From assembly GCF_003852705.1 (NCBI RefSeq), contig NZ_REFA01000016.1:1-59212 (forward strand): a stretch of DNA of 59,212 nucleotides, written 5' to 3'. Below the pieces are notes generated by a model. It worked only from the letters and a program-made list of their open reading frames with translations, ran no database searches and had not been told where the DNA came from. This DNA comes from Amniculibacterium aquaticum. Lineage in GTDB: Bacteria > Bacteroidota > Bacteroidia > Flavobacteriales > Weeksellaceae. Made by a program: the position numbers and the translations under genes. Below, piece by piece: positions 190 through 40,838 of the stretch (position 1 is its first letter; the number at the start of each line of letters is the position of its first letter).

Positions 190-1683
190 TTATGCCAAAC
201 TTGAGTTATTATCCATAGTTTCATCAAACGATTTTCTAAAAATTTGAACTGAGGTTTTCATTTCTTCTTCATTCATGTGTGCATATCCCAACCGAATGGC
301 TGAAGTGTTTTTGTCCTGATACAAGCAATATTTTGGAAGGTACAAACCGTTGGCTAAGCATTGGTCAACCCACTTTATAAGGGAGATTTTAGCATTTACA
401 TTCAACCATAAAGCCATTCCTCCATTGGGGATTTCTGTCTGAATTTCTTTAGGAAAATATTCATTCAAAAGTTTAACAAAAAGATTTTGTCGTTCACGAT
501 AGATTTTTTGAATTTTCCTTCGGTAACGGTGGATGTCGCCTTCTGCAATCATTTCGCCCAATGCCTGTTCTTTGTAATCGTCGGTATTGCCGTAAAAAGA
601 AAGGTATTTCTGTGCTTCGTGGATGATGTTTTCTGGGGCAACCATAAAATACGATTGAAATCCCGGAATCAAAAACCTTCCGAAGGCTCCCAAGTAGATG
701 ACCCATGCGTCATTTTTTTCTTTGTACAACGAGTGCAAGTTCTGTTTGTCATAAGAAATTTCAAAATCGGTATCGTCTTCAACAACCAGTATGTCCAATA
801 ATTTAGATAATTCCAAAAGTGATTTTCTGCGATTTTCGGACATATTTTCGCAAGTAGGATAGGAAAATTTTGAATTGAGGTACAACATTCTCACTTTTCC
901 TTTTTCAAAATTTTTAAGAATGTAATTCGTATCCAGACCTTCATGGTCCATGGGGATGGTGGTCACTTTAGCTCCTGCCTGTCGGAAAATCATGTTCGAG
1001 AAAAAATAACTTTTCTCACCCACCAAAACAACATCTCCTTTTTTGACGAACATTTGTGTGATGATGTTCAGGATGATTTCTCTACTGGATGATGTAATCA
1101 ATTGATTTTTGTTCAGATGAAGGTTTCTGCTTGTATTTAGGTAGTAACTCAATTGTTCCTTAAAGTACAAATTTCCTATTCTGTGAATGTTTTTTTGTTG
1201 ATGGTATTTGTTTTTTCTCTTCAATACACCGGAATAAAATCGAGCCAATTCATCACTTTGTATGATGCGAAAATCGGGAAGACCGTCGGTGAAAAAGTAC
1301 GGACAATCCATTTCATGAACCGGATTTTCTAAAATATAATTGCTATAAAAACGGATCGGAACCAAGTGTTTTTGAGAGTTAGATTTCTCCTGATAGGTTT
1401 TAAAGGAAGGGTTTTCATCGTTTTTTACAAAAGTTCCTACATTGGGGATGCTCTCTATCCAATCTTGAGCTTTCAACTCTTCCAATGCCGCCACAACTGT
1501 TCTTCGATGTATTTTCAATTCAGAAGCCCACAATCGACTCCCCGGCAGTTGGTTTCCGTGCTTTAAAGTACCTCTTTTTACCGCATTGATGAATTGGTAA
1601 ACCACCTGCAGATAGATGGGATCTTTGGCATTTCTGTCGATTTTTATGATGGATGTTATTGGATGTTCTACCGGACTACTCAT
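190..1683 (-). CDS. MocR/GntR-family regulator with a degenerate PLP site
   Basis: A 497-residue protein with the MocR/PdxR layout: an N-terminal GntR-type winged helix (about 15-87) joined to a class I aminotransferase-like domain (about 125-490). MocR regulators normally bind pyridoxal phosphate through a lysine in an FSK-x-x-x-PGxRxGY motif. Here the aligned stretch reads GAFGRFLIPGFQSYF, so the lysine is Arg336. The tyrosine of the usual VEDDYD motif is Thr305 (VVEDDTDFE). The C-terminal arginine motif AIRLGYAH is kept. The protein therefore probably does not form the internal aldimine and may sense a ligand other than PLP, or be redundant. It is transcribed divergently from the TonB receptor/bioB pair across a 83-bp gap, so that pair is its most likely target, together with its own gene. 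The -7 box TAAATTTG lies at 1703-1710 on the minus strand. The family call is firm; the ligand and target are inference. Confidence 0.85.
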   Translation of the reverse strand: MSSPVEHPITSIIKIDRNAKDPIYLQVVYQFINAVKRGTLKHGNQLPGSRLWASELKIHRRTVVAALEELKAQDWIESIPNVGTFVKNDENPSFKTYQEKSNSQKHLVPIRFYSNYILENPVHEMDCPYFFTDGLPDFRIIQSDELARFYSGVLKRKNKYHQQKNIHRIGNLYFKEQLSYYLNTSRNLHLNKNQLITSSSREIILNIITQMFVKKGDVVLVGEKSYFFSNMIFRQAGAKVTTIPMDHEGLDTNYILKNFEKGKVRMLYLNSKFSYPTCENMSENRRKSLLELSKLLDILVVEDDTDFEISYDKQNLHSLYKEKNDAWVIYLGAFGRFLIPGFQSYFMVAPENIIHEAQKYLSFYGNTDDYKEQALGEMIAEGDIHRYRRKIQKIYRERQNLFVKLLNEYFPKEIQTEIPNGGMALWLNVNAKISLIKWVDQCLANGLYLPKYCLYQDKNTSAIRLGYAHMNEEEMKTSVQIFRKSFDETMDNNSSLA

Positions 1684-1701
1684 TTTAAATATTCTGGACG
1701 A

Positions 1702-1766: not shown

Positions 1767-3629
1767 ATGAAGAAATCGTTAATGACGCTGAGCATGTTGG
1801 GATGTTTTGCTTTTTTTAGTGCACAAAACACGGATAAAGAAACTCAGGTAGAAGAAATCGTAGTACAAGGAAACCGTTTGGATACGCCATTTAGTCAATC
1901 CAGCCGTGATATACAACTGATCAGCCGTGAACAGATTGCTAAAATGCCTGCAAAGTCCATCAATGAACTTCTTTCTTTCGTCGGTGGTGTCGATGTTAGA
2001 CAAAGAGGACCGTTTGGTACACAAGCCGACATCAGTATTGATGGGGGATCTTTTGAGCAAACTTTGGTTTTGGTTAATGGTATAAAATTAATTGACTCAC
2101 AAACCGCTCACAATATGATGAACTTGCCCATAGCAATGGATGCCATCGACCATATCGAAATATTGAGAGGTGCAGCAGCGCGAATGTACGGAATAAATGC
2201 CCTGACCGGTGCCATCAATATTGTAACTAAAAAAGATAAAAAATCCTTTGTTTCTGCCGATTTATTTGCGGGTTCGTCGTTCAAATCCAAAGAAGAAGGG
2301 GATGAAGATGGTATTTATGCCGGTGGTGGAATACAGGTTACGGGAAATTACGGTACCGAAACACAAAACCATTTGTTCTCGGTCAATAAAACCAGCAGTA
2401 ACGGACAACGATACAACTCGGCGCAAGAAGGTCACAAATTTTTCTACAACGGAAATTATGATTTCAACGCCAATCACAGTATTTCTGCACTTGCAGGATA
2501 CACAAAAAATCAGTTTGGAGCCAACGGGTTTTATGCAGCTCCTGGAGATAAAAATTCTGAAGAAATTGTTAAAACCTCTTTGTTTAGCATTTCATCCAAA
2601 CATCAATTTGGGAATTTGATCCTTTCACCTAGAATTAGCGATCGTTACAACGAAGACGATTATCGCTACTTCAAAGACAAGTTGGATGTGGCCAGATCCA
2701 GACATTATACCAATGCGCTGATGTTGGAACTGAACGGTAGTTTGGCAACATCAATTGGTAAATTTGGCATGGGTTGGGAGTCGAGAATAGAAGAAATCAA
2801 CAGTACCAACATCGGAGATAGAAAAAGAAACAACCACGGTGCTTTTGCTGAATTCAAAACCAATCTTTCAGAAAAATTAATTGCAAACGCAGGTTTGTAT
2901 GTTAACTACAATACCGATTACGGTTGGAAAGTCTATCCGGGAATGGATGTGGCGTATTTAATAAACTCCAATTGGAAATTTTCTGCAAGTGTAGGAACGG
3001 GACAAAGAATTCCTTCCTTCACCGATTTGTACCTTAATCAAAAGCCTGGAAATGTGGGTAATCCTGATCTTCAACCGGAAAATGCTTGGCAATACGAAGC
3101 CAACATCCGATATGTTAAGAATAATTTCAATTTCCAAGCCGGATATTTCCAAAGAGACATTACCGATTTTATCGATTGGGTAAGACCAAACACAAGCGTT
3201 CCGTATTCGCCAATTAACTTTGGTAAAAATAGGGTGCAAGGTATGTATGCTCGTATCCAACAGCAATTTTACCTAGGAGAATCTCAAAGTATTGGTTATA
3301 AATTGAGTTACAATTACCTTAATCCTGAACTGATCAGTAACGGAAGTGTTATTTCAAAATACACCTTAGAATCGCTGAAGCATCAACTGATTGCCGGACT
3401 ACAGTACAAATACAAAAACTTTTCGGCACAAGTAGAAAATCGTTGGTTGAAAAGAGAATTGAACGATGCCTATACCATCACCGATCTCCGTCTGAATTAC
3501 CAATGGAAATCGTTCACGGTGTACAGCGATGTTACCAATATTTTTGATACGAAGTATAGAGAATCCGGAGCCGTTCCAATGCCAACGAGATGGTTTAGTC
3601 TTGGTTTCAAATATGTATGGACCAAATAA
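1767..3629 (+). CDS. TonB-dependent outer membrane receptor
   Basis: A 620-residue outer membrane receptor. Residues 1-19 form a signal peptide ending in FFSAQ. The plug domain (about 28-155) has the usual elements: a TonB-box-like VEEIVVQG near residue 30, INELLSFVGGVDVRQRG, and the end-of-plug EILRGAAARMYG followed by GAINIVTKK. The rest is a 22-strand-type barrel rich in aromatic/polar alternation, with the C-terminal strand motif FSLGFKYVW. It resembles the BtuB/vitamin and siderophore receptor type rather than SusC, because it lacks the carboxypeptidase-like N-terminal domain. It sits 18 bp upstream of bioB on the same strand with no terminator between them, so the two are probably co-transcribed. 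A role in uptake of biotin or a precursor is a reasonable guess from context, but no substrate signature can be read from the sequence. Iron uptake remains an alternative because BioB needs iron-sulfur clusters. Confidence 0.88.
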   Translation: MKKSLMTLSMLGCFAFFSAQNTDKETQVEEIVVQGNRLDTPFSQSSRDIQLISREQIAKMPAKSINELLSFVGGVDVRQRGPFGTQADISIDGGSFEQTLVLVNGIKLIDSQTAHNMMNLPIAMDAIDHIEILRGAAARMYGINALTGAINIVTKKDKKSFVSADLFAGSSFKSKEEGDEDGIYAGGGIQVTGNYGTETQNHLFSVNKTSSNGQRYNSAQEGHKFFYNGNYDFNANHSISALAGYTKNQFGANGFYAAPGDKNSEEIVKTSLFSISSKHQFGNLILSPRISDRYNEDDYRYFKDKLDVARSRHYTNALMLELNGSLATSIGKFGMGWESRIEEINSTNIGDRKRNNHGAFAEFKTNLSEKLIANAGLYVNYNTDYGWKVYPGMDVAYLINSNWKFSASVGTGQRIPSFTDLYLNQKPGNVGNPDLQPENAWQYEANIRYVKNNFNFQAGYFQRDITDFIDWVRPNTSVPYSPINFGKNRVQGMYARIQQQFYLGESQSIGYKLSYNYLNPELISNGSVISKYTLESLKHQLIAGLQYKYKNFSAQVENRWLKRELNDAYTITDLRLNYQWKSFTVYSDVTNIFDTKYRESGAVPMPTRWFSLGFKYVWTK

Positions 3630-3647: not shown

Positions 3648-4715
3648 ATGAAATCAATATCCAAAGACGAAATTCGAGAAATCTATAATTTGCCTCTGAT
3701 CACGCTGATCCATAGAGCTTCAGAAATACATAGAATGCATCATTGTCCGGAAGAAGTGCAAATAAGTACTTTGGTTTCTATAAAAACGGGAGGCTGTCCG
3801 GAAGATTGTGCCTACTGTCCACAAGCTGCAAGATACCACACCAAAGTGAATGTGGATGAAATGTTGTCCGTAGATGATGTGGTGAAAGCGGCTGAAGAAG
3901 CCAAAGAATTGGGCAGTTCTAGACTTTGCATGGGGGCAGCTTGGCGAAATGTCAAGAACAACAAGGACTTCGACCGGGTTTTAGATATGGTAAAAACCGT
4001 AAATTCTATGGAAATGGAGGTCTGTTGTACCTTAGGAATGATTACAGAAAACCAAGCCAAACGATTGGCAGCCGCTGGTCTGTACGCATACAACCACAAT
4101 ATTGACACTTCCGAAGAGTATTATAAAGAAATTATTTCGACCCGAAGTTATGATGATCGCTTGAAAACCATTGATAACGCCAGAAATGCAGGAATAACCA
4201 TCTGCTCTGGAGGGATTATTGGAATGGGCGAATCGGCAGAGGATCGTATCGACATGTTGTTTACTTTATCCCTTCTTAACCCATTGCCGGAATCGGTTCC
4301 TATCAATGCCTTGGTTCCGGTAGAAGGGACACCTTTGGAAAATCAAACAACGGTTTCTTCTTGGGAAATGATCCGTATGATTGCCACAGCCCGTTTGGTA
4401 CTTCCTAAAACTCAAATTCGATTATCTGCCGGTAGAAAACAGATGAATCATGAAGCTCAAGCCTTGTGTTTCTTGGCCGGAGCAAATTCAATTTTTTCTG
4501 GTGAAAAATTATTGACAACACCAAATCCTGAATTAAATGAGGATAAAATACTTTTGGACACCTTGGGGCTTAAGCCCAAAAAGCCTTTTGAAGATCATAA
4601 GAAACCCGAAGTATATGATTTGGATTTGTCAGAATTCAATGATGAAGAAATTATTCGATGGTCAAGGCCGAAACACAAAATCGAAAAAAACATTATGGCT
4701 TCACAAAAGAAGTGA
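3648..4715 (+). CDS. bioB: Biotin synthase
   Basis: A radical SAM enzyme (355 residues) that inserts sulfur into dethiobiotin in the last step of biotin synthesis. The 4Fe-4S ligands are Cys50, Cys54 and Cys57 in GGCPEDCAYCPQ. Other family hallmarks are YNHNIDTS, CSGGIIGMGES and LSAGRKQM, the last near the 2Fe-2S arginine. Length fits the family, with a C-terminal acidic tail of about 30 residues. The ATG at 3648 follows the receptor stop by 18 bp. No bioA, bioD or bioF is in the window, so the rest of the pathway is elsewhere or the cell imports precursors. A hairpin terminator follows at 4723. Confidence 0.96.
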   Translation: MKSISKDEIREIYNLPLITLIHRASEIHRMHHCPEEVQISTLVSIKTGGCPEDCAYCPQAARYHTKVNVDEMLSVDDVVKAAEEAKELGSSRLCMGAAWRNVKNNKDFDRVLDMVKTVNSMEMEVCCTLGMITENQAKRLAAAGLYAYNHNIDTSEEYYKEIISTRSYDDRLKTIDNARNAGITICSGGIIGMGESAEDRIDMLFTLSLLNPLPESVPINALVPVEGTPLENQTTVSSWEMIRMIATARLVLPKTQIRLSAGRKQMNHEAQALCFLAGANSIFSGEKLLTTPNPELNEDKILLDTLGLKPKKPFEDHKKPEVYDLDLSEFNDEEIIRWSRPKHKIEKNIMASQKK

Positions 4716-7578: not shown

Positions 7579-7757
7579 TTTTACTTAGATTTAAAGGTTG
7601 TAATTATTAGCGTATAAAAATAATCAAATTAATGAAATGATCATCATGAGATGTTTCATGTTTTAAGTGGTTGGAATTGATTGAGTTAATGTTTTTTCAA
7701 TAAATAATTTTCACAGTTGGTATTTCCCAAAAAACAATTCTAACTCCACTTTTTTTG

Positions 7758-10547
7758 TTAAATTTTTAATTTTTCTTCAACATATTTTGCCGTTCTAGAA
7801 GTTTTACAATTCACAATGTCTTCTGGTGTTCCTTCAAAAACGATTTCTCCGCCGTATTTTCCAGCATCTGGACCGATATCAATAATCCAGTCGGCCGATT
7901 TGATGATGTCGGGTTGGTGCTCGATAACAATCACCGAATGACCCAAGTTGATCAAGGCTTGCAAAGATTTCATCAGTTTGTTGATGTCGTGAAAGTGAAG
8001 TCCAGTGGAGGGTTCATCAAAAACGAAAAGGGTTTTGTCGGTTGTCACCCCTTTTACCAAAAACGAAGCGAGTTTTACCCTTTGAGCTTCGCCACCAGAA
8101 AGGGTAGAGGAGCTTTGTCCCAGCTGCAAATATCCCAAGCCAACATCGTGCAAAGGTTGCAATTTGTGTGCAATTTTTTCTTCTCGTATTTCATGGAAAA
8201 ACTCCAATGCTTCGTCCACCGTCATGTGCAGGATGTCCGAGATGTTTTTACCATCGACTTTTATTTCCAGAATTTCATTTTTGAAGCGTTGTCCTTTACA
8301 TACATCGCATTCCAGTTCGATGTCGGCCATAAATTGCATGGAAACATTGATTACGCCTTCGCCTTTGCACTCGTCGCATCTACCGCCATCGACATTAAAG
8401 GAGAAGTGCTTGGGTTTGTATCCGTGCAATTTTGATGATTTTTGTTTGGAGAAAAGATCTCGGATATCGTCGTACGCTTTCAGATAAGTTACCGGATTGG
8501 ATCTGGACGATTTCCCTATTGGGTTTTGGTCAATCAGCTCTATGTTTTTAATAAGTTTTTTTGGGAATTCAACCTCGTCATAATCGCCTTTTTTCCCACC
8601 CATTCCCAGTTGGATTTGGATGTCGTTAACCAAAATTTCCTTCATCAAAGTCGATTTTCCAGAACCCGAAACTCCGGTTATCACAGTTAAATTTTCAAGT
8701 GGAATGTCAACAGAAATGTTTTTCAGGTTGTTTTGTCTTGCTCCTTTTATTTTTATGAATTCTTTGGCGGATCTTCGTTTCTTTGGAACTTCAATTTCCA
8801 ATCGTCCATTTAAATAATCCGAAGTTAAAGTGTGTGCATTTTTTAGTTGATCGTAATCGCCTGAAAATACCAATTCGCCACCCAGATTTCCTGCTTCTGG
8901 ACCGATATCGATGATGTAATCTGCGGCATGCATCACATCTTCATCGTGTTCCACAACAATTACGGTATTTCCCAAATCCCTGAGACTTTTTAATACTTCG
9001 ATGAGATTTTCGGTGTCTTTAGAATGCAAACCAATCGATGGCTCGTCTAAAATGTAAATAGAACCCACCAATGAACTTCCCAAACTGGTGGCCAGGTTAA
9101 TTCTCTGACTTTCGCCTCCGGAAAGGGTGTTGGAGGTTCTGTTTAAAGTTAGATAACCTAGGCCAACTTTGATCAGGAACTCCAATCGAGTGGTGATTTC
9201 GTAGGTCAATCTTTTGGCGATTTCCGCTTCGTGTTTGTTTAGTTTCAATGATTTTATGATGGGCAAGACCTCATCCAAAGGAAGATCAACCAAAGACTGT
9301 ACGGTATGTCCGTCAATTTTCACATAATTGGCTTCTGGTCTCAAGCGGTTTCCTTCGCAGTCCGGACACTCGGTTTTTCCACGATAGCGAGAGAGCATCA
9401 CGCGATATTGTATTTTATAGAGGTTTTCCTCTAACATCCTGAAAAAATTATTGAGAGACGGGAAGTTTTTGGTATCATCGCCCTTCCATAAAAGATTTTT
9501 CTGATCTTTAGTCAGTTCAAAATACGGTTTATGAATGGGGAAATCTTTGGCTTTTTTTATGAATTCTTTTTTCCATTCTTGCATGGTTTCGCCTTTCCAA
9601 CAAGATGCCGCATCTTCAAACAAAGAGAGGTTTTTGTTAGGGATCACCAAATCTTCATCAATACCAATAACTTTTCCATAGCCTTCACAGGTCGGACAAG
9701 CTCCGTACGGGTTGTTAAAGCTGAAGAAATGAACGGTCGGTTCTAGAAAATCCATGCCGTCCAATTCAAATTTATTGGAGAAGGATTTTATTTTATTGGT
9801 ATCCGTATTTTTTAAAGAACACAAACCATGACCTTCGTAAAATGCCATCTGAACCGAGTCTGCCAATCGTTGAAGGAAACTCTCGTCCTCTTCATAAGTA
9901 AATCGGTCGATGACCAAATGGATGTCCATATCTTCGGTCGGACTAAATCCGAAACTTTCCAAATCTTCTATGCTTGCGACATTTCCATTGATTTCTAATC
10001 GTGTAAATCCTGAAAGTTTTAAAGTCTTTAGATTTTCTTTAAACAAATGGATGTCAAAGGAAAGAGGGCAACGAAGTAGAAAGGAATTTTTAGAATTTTT
10101 CTGTATAAAATCGATTACATCGGTTACGCTATCCTTTTTTACCTCTTCACCAGAAATTGGGGAGTAAGTCCTGCCGACTCTTGCAAATAAGAGTTTCAAA
10201 TAATCGTAGATTTCTGTAGAAGTACCAACTGTAGATCGAGGGTTGGAAGAAATAACCTTTTGCTGTATGGCGATGGATGGAGCCAATCCTTTGATGTCAT
10301 CTACTTTTGGCTTTTCTAATTTTCCTAAAAATTGTCGTGCGTAGGAACTTAGAGATTCTACATATCGCCTTTGTCCTTCGGCATAAATGGTATCAAATGC
10401 CAAAGACGATTTTCCCGAACCGGATACTCCTGTTATTACAATCAGTTTATTTTTTGGGATAACGACATCCAGGTGTTTTAAATTATTAAGATGGGCATTT
10501 TTTACAAAAATTTCTTTCTTTATGTCGATGCTTTCCACTGTAATCAT
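7758..10547 (-). CDS. uvrA: UvrABC excinuclease ATPase subunit A
   Basis: A 929-residue damage-recognition subunit of nucleotide excision repair. It has two ABC ATPase modules. Walker A motifs are near residues 40-47 (GVSGSGKS) and again near 635 (GVSGSGKST). The signatures are [13 protein letters not shown] and [13 protein letters not shown], and the Walker B stretches are [10 protein letters not shown] and VFDEPSTGL. The zinc modules are visible: CPTC paired with CPDC in the first half, and CDEC paired with CDVC in the second. Length is normal for a full UvrA. A perfect -7 box, TATATTTG, lies at 10566-10573 on the minus strand, 18 bases before the ATG. Bacteroidetes often carry more than one UvrA paralogue and I cannot tell from this window which copy this is. 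Confidence 0.95.
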
Positions 10548-15526: not shown

Positions 15527-16348
15527 ATGGATAAAAGAGGTGAAACATGGAGAGAATATCCACTTGATGAAAATAGAACAAACAAAGAGTTTCGATTGTT
15601 TTTTTCTAATCTGGGTCGTGTAAAATCGGTCAGCTACCTTTGTCCTGAAGGCAGGATTATTAAAGGCTCTCTCAGAGAAGGATACCCAATAATTTCTGCA
15701 AAAGTGATGTTGGAAAGACCCAAAAGAATTCAAAATAAAATCGATGAATTTAACTTGAAAATTAATCTGTTACAGCAAGAACTTAAAGAGCTTAAAAACA
15801 TTCAAGATTTACCGGAAGAGGTCGTAGAATCCAGAATGCTGATCCTAAACGACAGAAGAGACGAGATTGTACAAAAAAGGTCAGAATACACGAAGAAAAC
15901 CGAAAAGAAAAGGACCTCAAATGTACATATCTTGGTACACAGAGCCATTGCCGAACTTTTTTTGAGAAAGGGAGAAGCCGATGAAGTCGTTATACATAAA
16001 GATTTTGTAAAAACGAATAATGAGTTAGCGAATCTAGAATGGATGTCCAAAGAAGAGGCTTTCAATAGGTACAAAGAAGCACCTTATTTCAAAAAGAAAA
16101 CCTACATAACAGACAGAAAAAATGCTCCAAGAAAAACTCCGAAACATCAAAAATTGACAGAATCGGATGTATTGTACATCAAAGAAAGACTATCTAAAGG
16201 TAAAACTTTGAAAGAATTGGCAAAGAAATTTGGCGTTTCGGATATGCAAATCCACCGAATAAAAACCGGAGAAAATTGGAGTCATGTAAAAACCGTTGCC
16301 GAACTAAATAATCTGAATAATAGAAACAAAAAATGGCAAGCTACCTAA
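15527..16348 (+). CDS. NUMOD4/HNH-like protein with coiled coil and HTH
   Basis: A 273-residue protein with parts that recall homing endonucleases. Residues 7-36 look like NUMOD4 (TWREYP ... FFSNLGRVKSVS). Residues 64-125 are a charged, coiled-coil-like insert. Residues 133-172 resemble the HNH_3 fold: VHRAIAELFL, then VIHKDFVKTNNELANLEW, with His157 and Asn164/Asn165 in the positions of the catalytic His and Asn. Residues 208-252 form a helix-turn-helix (LKELAKKFGVSDMQIHRIKTG). No intron or intein surrounds it. It may be a free-standing nuclease or a domesticated DNA-binding protein. Its last 14 bases overlap the 3' end of the oppositely transcribed SRP RNA gene. Domain assignments are my reading of motifs and are moderately sure. 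Confidence 0.65.
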   Translation: MDKRGETWREYPLDENRTNKEFRLFFSNLGRVKSVSYLCPEGRIIKGSLREGYPIISAKVMLERPKRIQNKIDEFNLKINLLQQELKELKNIQDLPEEVVESRMLILNDRRDEIVQKRSEYTKKTEKKRTSNVHILVHRAIAELFLRKGEADEVVIHKDFVKTNNELANLEWMSKEEAFNRYKEAPYFKKKTYITDRKNAPRKTPKHQKLTESDVLYIKERLSKGKTLKELAKKFGVSDMQIHRIKTGENWSHVKTVAELNNLNNRNKKWQAT

Positions 16349-16428
16349 ATCACACCGCTACAACCGATTACCTTTGCTGCGTTCCCACCCTGGAGGATTC
16401 TCAGGAGCTGGTTGTTTAGGACTTGCCG
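16334..16428 (-). ncRNA. ffs: Signal recognition particle RNA (small, 4.5S type)
   Basis: Reading the minus strand gives the conserved SRP Alu-less hairpin. GGCAAGTCC leads to AACCAGCTCC, the apical region includes CCAGGGTGGGAACGCAGCAA, and the return strand is GGTTGTAGCGGTGTG. The 5' GGCAAG (16427-16422) pairs with a 3' CTTGCC (16340-16335), closing the stem, and a run of six T follows, acting as terminator. The -7 box TATATTTG lies at 16432-16439 (minus), about 5 bases before the 5' end. The RNA pairs with Ffh for co-translational membrane targeting. Its 3' end overlaps the stop region of the HNH-like gene. Exact ends are plus or minus a few bases. Confidence 0.93.
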
Positions 16429-16431
16429 GTG

Positions 16432-16439
16432 CAAATATA
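16432..16439 (-). promoter_or_regulatory. -7 promoter box of ffs
   Basis: TATATTTG on the minus strand is an exact consensus match, placed so that transcription starts at the first paired base of the SRP RNA stem. Confidence 0.7.
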
Positions 16440-24049: not shown

Positions 24050-25312
24050 CTATTCTTTTATGAATTTGCTTGATAAAATAATCTTCTGATTTCGATCTTT
24101 CAATTGTAAAAAGTAGTTTCCAGGATTTAATTCATCTATTTTAATGGTGTTATTATTTAATTTATTTTGAATGATTAGTCTTCCACTTGCATCGAAAATT
24201 TCAAAATTATCTATGTTTTTTCCATTTTTTATTTGGATAAAATCTTTAACAGGATTGGGATATATACTCAATTCTGGATTTGCTATTTCTTCAGTTTTCA
24301 AGCTGTTAACGGTAATGTTCATGGTTTTTACAGAAGTTTTTCCACATCTGGACACCTTCAGTTCTACAGGAAATATCCCGGGGCTGTTAAAGTTATGAAG
24401 CGGATTTTTATCAGTTGAACTTTGTCCATCTCCAAAATTCCATAAAAACTGAACTCCACTGTAGGGATAATCAGCATAAAATTGAATGTTTTGTGGATTA
24501 TTGGCATCTACAGATGAAGAAAAATTTGAATTAAGATCGTATTTTCCCACATTCCAAGTCAATAATTGATCGAAAACAACCGTTTTTGCAGCCTCACGAA
24601 TTTGTGATGCCGTTGTAGGATCCAAGTTAGCCGTATAGGGAATAAGACTTGGATTTTCTCTAAAAATAACGGTATAAAACGCACAAGCAGCCGCATACGA
24701 ACCGGCAAGTGAAGGGTGGCTTTCGTCTGAAGAATACAATTCGATGTTTGGATAATTGTTTCTGATGTACCTCCAAACTGCTCCAACAGGAGACACAATG
24801 CCGTTGTTTTGAAGAGCCATCATTTCATAACGCGTTTTTATAGCATTGTCCATTCCTTGATAAGTGCAAACTACAGGGTTGGCTGCGCAGTTGCCTGCAT
24901 CTCCATTTTTTCTTCCCCAAGTCATATAAAAAATAGTTTCTGCGCAAGGATTGTTTTTATTAATCAATGAATCCAGTTTTTTTGCATAAGGAAACATGTT
25001 ATTATTCACATAGTTATCCGGAAAAGAAGGAATTTGACTTTGCTCCTGAAGAACGACAAAATCCCAATTTCCCTGTTCGATTTTTGATTTCGAAATACCA
25101 TTTCCCCAATGTCCTTGTAGGGTATGTCCGCCAGGAGTATTGGAATCAAAATTGACCGTATTTCCAACAGAAATGGCCATATTTTTAACCAAATTGGGCA
25201 AATTGTTTACTTCTGTATAACTATTTCCCAAAAAAAGAACATTTTTGGTTGTTTGTGCAGAAATGTAAATTGATAACAGATTGATAAATAGTAAGATATA
25301 GATTTTCTTCAT
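24050..25312 (-). CDS. Secreted SGNH hydrolase with PKD domain and T9SS tail
   Basis: A 420-residue exported protein. Residues 1-20 are a signal peptide ending SAQ. An SGNH-type catalytic domain follows: the GNSYT motif gives Ser31, and SDESHPS gives Asp196 and His199. A PKD-like module (about 262-335, FLWNFGDGQSSTDKNP) comes next, then a type IX secretion C-terminal sorting domain (about 345-420: LSIYPNPVKDFIQI ... GNYFLQL). It would be secreted or surface-attached and deacylate or hydrolyse an ester, possibly on polysaccharide. The substrate is not evident. It is transcribed alone. Confidence 0.88.
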   Translation of the reverse strand: MKKIYILLFINLLSIYISAQTTKNVLFLGNSYTEVNNLPNLVKNMAISVGNTVNFDSNTPGGHTLQGHWGNGISKSKIEQGNWDFVVLQEQSQIPSFPDNYVNNNMFPYAKKLDSLINKNNPCAETIFYMTWGRKNGDAGNCAANPVVCTYQGMDNAIKTRYEMMALQNNGIVSPVGAVWRYIRNNYPNIELYSSDESHPSLAGSYAAACAFYTVIFRENPSLIPYTANLDPTTASQIREAAKTVVFDQLLTWNVGKYDLNSNFSSSVDANNPQNIQFYADYPYSGVQFLWNFGDGQSSTDKNPLHNFNSPGIFPVELKVSRCGKTSVKTMNITVNSLKTEEIANPELSIYPNPVKDFIQIKNGKNIDNFEIFDASGRLIIQNKLNNNTIKIDELNPGNYFLQLKDRNQKIILSSKFIKE

Positions 25313-39239: not shown

Positions 39240-40838
39240 TTAATTTTTTTTGATGAACTTCTTAATGGTAAAGTCTTGGTTTATGAAAATTTTTAAATAA
39301 TAGATGCCATTGTCTAAAGAATGTATATTTATAGACTTTTCATTTTCATTTTTCAATATTAATCTTCCAAGCTGATCGTAGATTTCTACCTTATCGGGAG
39401 TTAAATCACTGTTGATGTTTACCGTTTCATGGGCCGGATTTGGATAGACGGTAACTGGAGTTTTTACTGAAAATTCTTCGGCACTCAAGGTGTTCAGTAA
39501 CAATCCGAAATTCAAGATACCATATCCAATTTGGTTGGTATAATTTGGAAATAACGAAGCGGTTTCTCTCAATTTTGTTCTCATAAGATCACGGTTCATA
39601 TTGGGGAATGCTTGTATTAGACAAGCCACTCCACCAGCTGCAACCGGTGTTGCAAGAGAGGTTCCGCTGGATGTGGTTGCACCCGTTCCGTTTACAGAAG
39701 CCGTAGCTGTACCTCTGGCACTGGCATCCGGTTTTACAATTCCTAAAGAATTGGGACCAAATGATGAAAAATTAGAGGAAACTCCCAAGTTATCCACAGC
39801 ACCAATGGTGAAAACCTTTGCATTGTCCGCCGGTGTCATGATGTAATGCCAGCTTTGCTGACCGGCATTTCCTGCAGCTGCCAATACAAAAATTCCTTTT
39901 TCTGTAGCAATTTGTGCACCTCTGGCAATAAAAGAAGTAGTACCGTTCATGTCACTGTATTGCAAATTGTATCTCGGGTCGTCAAAAACATTGTAGCCCA
40001 AAGAAGTGGTGATGATGTCCACACCTTTTCTATCGGCTTCTTCCGCGGCTTCTATCCAATAGAGTTGTTCTTCTGGGATTTCTTGGTTATAACTTTCGGT
40101 TGCGTACAGATAAAAATCGGCATCTGGAGCAGACCCTACAAAAGTTCCGTCGATATAACCGCCTATGGCTCCTAAAACCACAGTGCCGTGTGCATAGAGG
40201 TTGGTATTGTAAATGTCAGTATTTTTCGAAATAAAATTGTAGCCGCCTTTTATTTTGTTGTTGGTCCACAATCTGGAAAACGGTGTCCCGCTATCAACTT
40301 GCGGAAAACCGGTGTCTATAACAGCAATTGTGGTTCCGTTGCCTGTGTATCCGGACAAATGCAGGTTTCTAAGATTAATTTGGTCAATCTGTGCTAAGCC
40401 ATTCCCATAATTAAAATTGATTAATGAGGCTTTGTTGGTATTTTCCCATTTGTTGAATGTGGAATTTTTAGTTGAAGGATTCGTATTTTTTGCAAAACTT
40501 TCCACCGATTGTACAAAAGTTTGGCTTTGTAATACAACCTTTTCTGCTGCTGTAGCGTTTACGGCAACTCCATTTAACCATTTAGAATAATCGGTAACGG
40601 TAAATCCTAAATTCTGAATATTCTGAATATAAGAAGGCTCAATAGGAGCATCTTGATCGTTTAGCGAAATGCCTAGAGCCAATCGACGGTTTAGGGACTT
40701 TTGTGTAAGTTCGGACAAAGGATTGGCGTAGAATGCGGCTTTATTGGGTTTATCTTTAAAAAAAACAAAGACCAACTCTGTCTGTGCCGACATTTCAAAA
40801 CTTATGGTTGCAAATAGAAGAAGTATGGTTTTTTTCAT
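39240..40838 (-). CDS. Secreted S8 subtilisin-like peptidase with T9SS tail
   Basis: A 532-residue secreted protease. Residues 1-19 form a signal peptide (SAQ). A propeptide-like region runs to about 145. The catalytic triad is Asp175 (AVIDTGFP), His217 (YAHGTVVLG) and Ser394 (SGTSLATPVA), with Asn324 in AAGNAG as oxyanion residue. The C-terminal 75 residues are a type IX secretion sorting domain (VTVYPNPAHETVNI ... GIYYLKIF). It is probably surface-bound or released. The preceding small basic exported protein ends 3 bp before its start, so they form an operon. Confidence 0.93.
   Translation of the reverse strand: MKKTILLLFATISFEMSAQTELVFVFFKDKPNKAAFYANPLSELTQKSLNRRLALGISLNDQDAPIEPSYIQNIQNLGFTVTDYSKWLNGVAVNATAAEKVVLQSQTFVQSVESFAKNTNPSTKNSTFNKWENTNKASLINFNYGNGLAQIDQINLRNLHLSGYTGNGTTIAVIDTGFPQVDSGTPFSRLWTNNKIKGGYNFISKNTDIYNTNLYAHGTVVLGAIGGYIDGTFVGSAPDADFYLYATESYNQEIPEEQLYWIEAAEEADRKGVDIITTSLGYNVFDDPRYNLQYSDMNGTTSFIARGAQIATEKGIFVLAAAGNAGQQSWHYIMTPADNAKVFTIGAVDNLGVSSNFSSFGPNSLGIVKPDASARGTATASVNGTGATTSSGTSLATPVAAGGVACLIQAFPNMNRDLMRTKLRETASLFPNYTNQIGYGILNFGLLLNTLSAEEFSVKTPVTVYPNPAHETVNINSDLTPDKVEIYDQLGRLILKNENEKSINIHSLDNGIYYLKIFINQDFTIKKFIKKN

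Follow-up and report, generated by a model that had tools for sequence, protein, structure and literature searches.

Does a regulator built on the aminotransferase fold still need PLP once the lysine that forms the aldimine has been replaced? The question is raised by the first gene of the window, i.e. the whole 59,212-nucleotide stretch of Amniculibacterium aquaticum DNA analysed here, a mocR gene that lies divergent to a TonB-dependent receptor gene (Table 1). Only 18 bp separate the receptor gene from bioB, and the neighbourhood is thus the one described in the earlier note on this DNA. That note had treated the MocR protein as a single odd case, but the pattern is family-wide. Judged by alignment and tree position, the window protein is part of a broad, repeated lysine-less pattern among BioL-type regulators of Bacteroidota. 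A family in which many members have replaced the lysine while the genes mostly stay near biotin or uptake genes suggests an aminotransferase-shaped sensor whose cofactor has been changed or abandoned.

Table 1. Features of the mocR locus, with positions in the window
Feature	Position	Strand	Basis or remark
BioL-family MocR regulator, 497 aa, without PLP lysine	190-1683	-	ORF, ATG start
GntR-type winged HTH, residues 24-86	1426-1614	-	PF00392
R50, equal to EmBioL R50	codon 1534-1536	-	
Aminotransferase class I/II-like sensor domain, residues 160-479	247-1206	-	Pfam stretch PF00155 (Aminotran_1_2)
Arg336, at Schiff-base lysine position (GabR K312, EmBioL K340)	676-678	-	codon AGG
Thr305, at GabR Tyr281 position	769-771	-	codon ACC
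Gln343, at PLP-phosphate arginine position (GabR R319)	655-657	-	codon CAA
Arg464, small domain, aligned to Arg of 1x0m RLNF motif	292-294	-	HMMER alignment
Operator-like half-site 1, CCGGACTA, overlapping mocR codons 2-5	1671-1678	+	
Operator-like half-site 2, CTGGACGA, 23 bp from half-site 1	1694-1701	+	
Divergent intergenic region mocR/TonB receptor, 83 bp	1684-1766	none	
TonB-dependent receptor, BtuB-like by profile	1767-3629	+	177 bits, cut-off 599.7
bioB, biotin synthase	3648-4715	+	402 bits, cut-off 225

A MocR protein without its aldimine lysine

The window protein has the two parts of a MocR regulator, a GntR winged HTH (36.5 bits, cut-off 27) and a C-terminal domain of fold type I (54.3 bits, cut-off 19.7), while the PdxR equivalog NF052282 scores 257.4 bits, below its cut-off of 320. 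The fold is predicted to be intact by an AlphaFold2 model built from 23 sequences (pLDDT 79.7, pTM 0.68, with a weak linker), in which the sensor domain gives Z about 35 and an rmsd of 2.5 against GabR and PdxR, values that ordinary aminotransferases tie. This architecture is shared with GabR of Bacillus subtilis and PdxR of Bacillus clausii; both are solved PLP-binding MocRs with an aldimine lysine, whereas the window protein lacks that lysine and the phosphate arginine.

The earlier reading of Arg336 as the substitute for the Schiff-base lysine holds in two alignments. HMMER places FGR(336) on the FSK found both in PdxR (7pq9) and in the aminotransferase 1x0m, and a 110-row alignment including a GabR fragment that ends at residue 401 places GabR K312 on R336, Y281 on T305 and R319 on Q343. 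The same alignment shows what is kept, namely the pyridine-nitrogen aspartate (D279, here D303) and Y205 (Y226), with Y275 at the position of F250; Arg464 we take to be the equivalent of GabR R430. Arginine does not form a PLP aldimine, and we infer that none exists at residue 336. An assembly error at this codon can be set aside, since a residue other than lysine occupies the position in 63 of 99 family members.

Not all of these substitutions weigh the same. The earlier note had called the tyrosine replaced by Thr305 an O3'-contacting residue; the substitution is there, but Table 2 of PMC6917764 lists GabR Tyr281 as stacking on the PLP ring. According to PMC6677901, MocR proteins retained PLP binding after catalysis was lost, every MocR cluster of its set keeps Lys312 and Asp279, and position 281 often varies, with Ala, Val or Ile frequent in other MocR groups. 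T305 alone is therefore weak evidence, and the losses of the lysine and the phosphate arginine are the telling ones. Gln343 had been overlooked in the earlier list of lost PLP residues; the loss of the phosphate arginine is stronger evidence than T305.

Membership in the BioL family

In Elizabethkingia meningoseptica the MocR protein BioL is described as repressing bioEFD and bioBA and is said to sense 8-amino-7-oxononanoate (AON). Its R50A and K340A variants are reported to behave like the deletion strain when the medium contains no biotin, with derepression of about 4-fold; repression is lost in K340A, so that the lysine matters in this protein (PMC12915131). Two Elizabethkingia regulators, L141 of E. 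argenteiflava and L043, have the FGK lysine at residue 340 and an arginine at residue 50, which fits the EmBioL numbering, and window residues R50 and R336 align with these two positions. The DNA-contacting R50 is thus present in the window protein, as in 99/99 members, and the link to biotin genes is present as well, while K340 is replaced.

A maximum-likelihood tree with the trait columns masked recovered the BioL family as 75 of 83 rows with support 100/100, leaving outside only seven outgroup rows and the distant locus L172. The clade of the window protein comprises 23 of the 83 rows, again with support 100/100, and unites proteins of Kaistella, Sphingobacterium, Albibacterium, Arenibacter, Aequorivita, Gelidibacter, Bizionia and Xanthomarina. 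Left out of the tree are 27 of the 110 rows, namely the partial L144 and near-duplicates of other rows; its long branches include L069, L032 and L170, as well as GabR and L089, which it joins to each other. When nine named genomes were queried with the Elizabethkingia BioL, six returned a single match, while in three, all Sphingobacterium, one or two additional MocRs matched this BioL at 35-37%.

The likeness to EmBioL thus covers the family assignment by the tree, R50, the divergent arrangement towards a biotin locus and, in Elizabethkingia relatives, operator-like repeats in the corresponding position. In contrast, EmBioL has K340 and reported AON sensing where the window protein has R336, T305 and Q343, and the window genome has no detected bioE or bioD and no bioA above the cut-off. 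BirA, BioR and BioQ are biotin-gene regulators of other architectures, so the parallel with them is confined to the control of biotin genes, and the biotin ligase of the window genome has no HTH, its frame of 237 aa being nearly all ligase domain with no room for one. Titles and the beginnings of abstracts in the literature searched describe no MocR without its lysine; an earlier mention in the BioE/BioL paper (PNAS 2025, PMC12704756) or the PdxR structure paper (PMC10450172) is conceivable. In the main text of a MocR regulon study (PMC5320631) the word biotin never occurs.

Repeated loss of the lysine

Relatives were sought at three taxonomic levels, giving any match at 1e-20, paralogues included, in 94 of 197 genomes of the window's family, matches at 1e-85 in 58 of 395 genomes of its order and matches in 11 of 395 genomes of its class. 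Contigs of named genomes scanned with alignment A1 yielded 31 loci, while the same kind of scan with the single window protein gave no match. Residues were read in 99 loci, which are a sample and not a census: the further family-level matches mostly belong to one genus (g20), in which 15/15 copies read have lysine. These counts leave out L114, L115, L123 and L141 as duplicates of L031, L032, L034 and L044, as well as the partial L144 and the distant L172.

Whether Arg336 is conserved among orthologues has a mixed answer, as residue 336 is R in 40 of the 99 members, K in 36, Q in six, H in five, S in five, D in three, N in three and C in one. Presence of the lysine varies with the gene neighbourhood. 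Beside bioE it is kept in 23/23 loci and the full K-Y-R set in 22/23, compared with 13/76 and 3/76 elsewhere, where bioE was named by similarity to the head gene of the bioF-D-B-A operon beside lysine-type regulators and not by a published sequence. Fisher's test gives p 1.2e-13 with kinship ignored; the pattern is strong but represents few independent events, because the bioE-linked rows form nearly one clade. At least 11 changes between lysine and other residues are needed on the tree, counts that give no direction by themselves. Since the outgroup MocRs all have lysine (8/8), it is probably the ancestral state, and some of the lysines inside arginine clades look like returns. The gene's stay near TonB and biotin genes, proposed earlier as a check, is borne out by 95/99 loci, in which a relative of TonB, bioB, bioA or bioE lies no more than 4.5 kb away.

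Several other positions are nearly immobile. R50, R464, W426, L454 and Q456 are identical in 99/99 members, with Arg50 and Arg464 present in 63/63 lysine-less copies, and P450, D303 and Y275 are each kept in 98/99. Throughout the window clade residue 343 is Gln (34/34) and G365 is also fixed, and given this invariance the pocket looks rebuilt rather than eroded.

A second lysine three residues upstream (K-3, position 333) occurs in 15/63 lysine-less rows, in two separate parts of the tree, vs 0/36 lysine rows, whereas members of the window clade carry A, S or T at position 333. It lies within the motifs GKFG[HND] (mocR of L059-L066 and L068) and GKLGQ (L167, L176, L178, L180, L183 and L184). 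The PLP lysine may thus possibly have been relocated to K-3 in two branches. Phylogenetically independent pairs have little power here: in nine pairs differing in lysine loss, K-3 differs in only 0-2, and for loss of Arg343 against lysine loss 0-2 pairs go the same way and one the other way.

Selection on the regulator and its relatives

The ratio dN/dS was estimated for 14 hand-chosen pairs, 11 of them within the window clade. In 10 of these 11 the mocR value is 0.048-0.131, close to the 0.025-0.144 found for bioB and TonB of the same pairs, and the eleventh gives 0.28 on very little divergence (pS 0.018). In these comparisons, relatives of the window MocR are under purifying selection. In its own genome, the window protein is the only match to itself.

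An operator-like direct repeat

The start of mocR carries a sequence that seems to be maintained as DNA. The codon for Ser3 is AGT in 90/92 and that for Pro4 is CCG in 89/92 mocR rows, while elsewhere in the same genes AGT makes up 24% of Ser codons and CCG 21% of Pro codons. The result is conditional on an M.SP-like start, with 9 of 101 rows that lack one omitted, and a codon bias of this kind suggests that selection acts on the DNA. The second half-site is CTGG or TCGG, mostly with ACTA next, at a distance of 23 bp in 33/35 window-clade rows; lysine-type rows show CTGG or GTGG at that place (22/24), and a third, CCGG, follows 18 bp beyond in 19/24.

An exact copy of the paired site is found only once in the window genome, at the mocR locus, and the predicted regulon therefore consists of mocR itself and TonB-bioB; matches with three mismatches are at control level (seven vs five in a reversed control). 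In seven loci of genus g21, CCGGACTA with CTGG or GTGG 23 bp on is found upstream of an unlinked bio operon or bioB, before bioE, bioD or bioB (L099, L100, L101, L102, L103 (4870), L104 and L105 (4744)); five of the seven fit the strict pattern, and the other two were recognised by inspection of the sequence. By visual judgement these sites precede the predicted starts and are thus not explained by protein constraint. At the lysine position, four of these seven genomes have a BioL with H, and one each has N, D and K (L103).

Two further observations concern this region. CCGGACTA...AACTGG also occurs near the start of the distant MocR of L172 (G521, 7603-9075, minus strand), which comes from another family and has the PLP lysine. 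The divergent promoter of the window also contains an inverted pair, GCAAATTT (1702-1709) and AAATTTGC (1725-1732), and CAAA...TTTGC recurs there across the window clade.

Biotin genes and uptake

The window genome is 99.8% complete, and among bioA, bioB, bioD, bioE and bioF only bioB is convincing in it. There is no match to bioE or bioD, and bioA-like matches of 266 and 248 bits fall far under the cut-off of 405. Two bioF-like matches, which in our own reading are of the Kbl and serine palmitoyltransferase types, lie on other contigs and have scores like those in relatives without a bio operon. The absence of bioF rests on gene position, because the bioF profile reached its cut-off in 0/48 genomes. 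Since bioE and bioD went undetected, the bioA-like matches stay below the cut-off and neither bioF-like gene is linked to other bio genes, the organism is not expected to make AON, and dethiobiotin or biotin taken up from outside would then be the natural signal.

Loss of the lysine cannot be put down simply to the end of AON synthesis: when checked, that link breaks down both ways. In Sphingobacterium, lysine-less copies stand next to bioB-A-F-D at most loci, and five g21 genomes have bioE yet lysine-less copies (H or N), while three g28 genomes have no bioA above the cut-off and no bioB, bioD or bioE, yet keep the lysine.

The best NCBIfam profile for the TonB receptor is the B12 receptor, at a score well under its cut-off (Table 1). 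Among 48 genomes bioB is absent in 24, and the MocR-TonB pair is seen in 20 of those 24, a persistence that argues for import of biotin itself. We put the BtuB-like receptor forward as a candidate biotin or dethiobiotin importer that annotation may call a B12 receptor.

What the regulator may sense

That the window protein is a functional regulator of its biotin locus is very probable, and it probably needs no PLP aldimine. Putting the parts together, we lean towards a working BioL-type repressor of TonB-bioB that operates without the aldimine and senses biotin or dethiobiotin. In such a mechanism, a dimer of the MocR protein would occupy the CGGAC direct repeats that cover the start of its gene and the TonB promoter, and with enough biotin present it would repress both its own gene and the TonB-bioB pair, the carboxylated ligand being held directly in the aminotransferase-like domain by Arg464 and the L-Y-Q motif. 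Biotin and dethiobiotin are the most likely ligands because they are the sole pathway compounds that the organism should contain; the choice itself is tentative. The repurposed sensor domain suggested in the earlier note gains from the family membership beside a biotin gene, the purifying selection in relatives and the conserved operator-like element, but any simple tie between lysine loss and pathway loss does not stand. A wider version, in which a whole branch of MocR regulators left PLP, is about as tentative: the window-clade fold would sense biotin or dethiobiotin directly and without a cofactor, and in the GKFG[HND] and GKLGQ branches the lysine would have moved three residues upstream, maybe as a new contact or aldimine.

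The chief rival keeps the vitamin. Because D303, Y275 and Y226 are retained in the window MocR, B6 could be bound without an aldimine, and the pocket might hold PLP or PMP non-covalently and sense a keto or amino compound of the pathway through the B6 vitamer, as might be modelled on the 3-dehydratases ColD and E1, which share the aminotransferase fold with the PLP lysine replaced but are PMP enzymes with His in its place (PMC8987622). The near-invariance of D303 and Y275 in the family speaks for this reading, and so does genus g21, where 11/13 copies have His, Asn or Asp at the lysine position (five His) and most other PLP contacts remain in most rows (D in 12/13, Y205 in 10/13, R319 in 9/13 and Y281 in 8/13). 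It sits poorly with the window clade, which lacks the phosphate arginine and the stacking tyrosine, and with the Asn found at the Tyr205 position in seven lysine-less rows, and we regard it as unlikely. Still less probable is an apo domain that senses nothing and serves as a constitutive DNA-binding scaffold; such a protein could well lose several cofactor residues, as happened here, but the conservation of the small-domain residues (P450, L454, Q456, R464) and of Q343 and G365 suggests that a pocket is maintained. The decaying paralogue proposed in the earlier note is hardly credible and already contradicted: cofactor-residue loss alone could hint at decay, but the gene has no second copy in its genome and an open frame of 497 aa, its relatives evolve at dN/dS values near those of bioB and TonB, and orthologues and operator are conserved.

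In the preferred reading of a BioL-type repressor working without the aldimine, the interest of the locus lies in the contrast with the sole tested BioL, which needs its lysine: within the same family and with the same kind of operator, the lysine appears to have been lost naturally, repeatedly and under selective maintenance. Lysine-less BioL copies therefore allow a direct question about the dependence of MocR sensing on PLP and the route from a PLP fold to a plain ligand sensor, and the operator motif may be used for mapping the biotin regulon of Bacteroidota.

Other features of the window

PADLOC gave no match in the window, and Rfam and tRNA scans found nothing at the mocR locus and no tRNAs. 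Elsewhere, a Bacteroidales-type small SRP RNA lies at 16330-16435 on the minus strand (Rfam RF04183, 96.9 bits), and type IX secretion sorting tails occur in the proteins encoded at 39240-40838 and 24050-25312, both on the minus strand, one of which is a subtilase.
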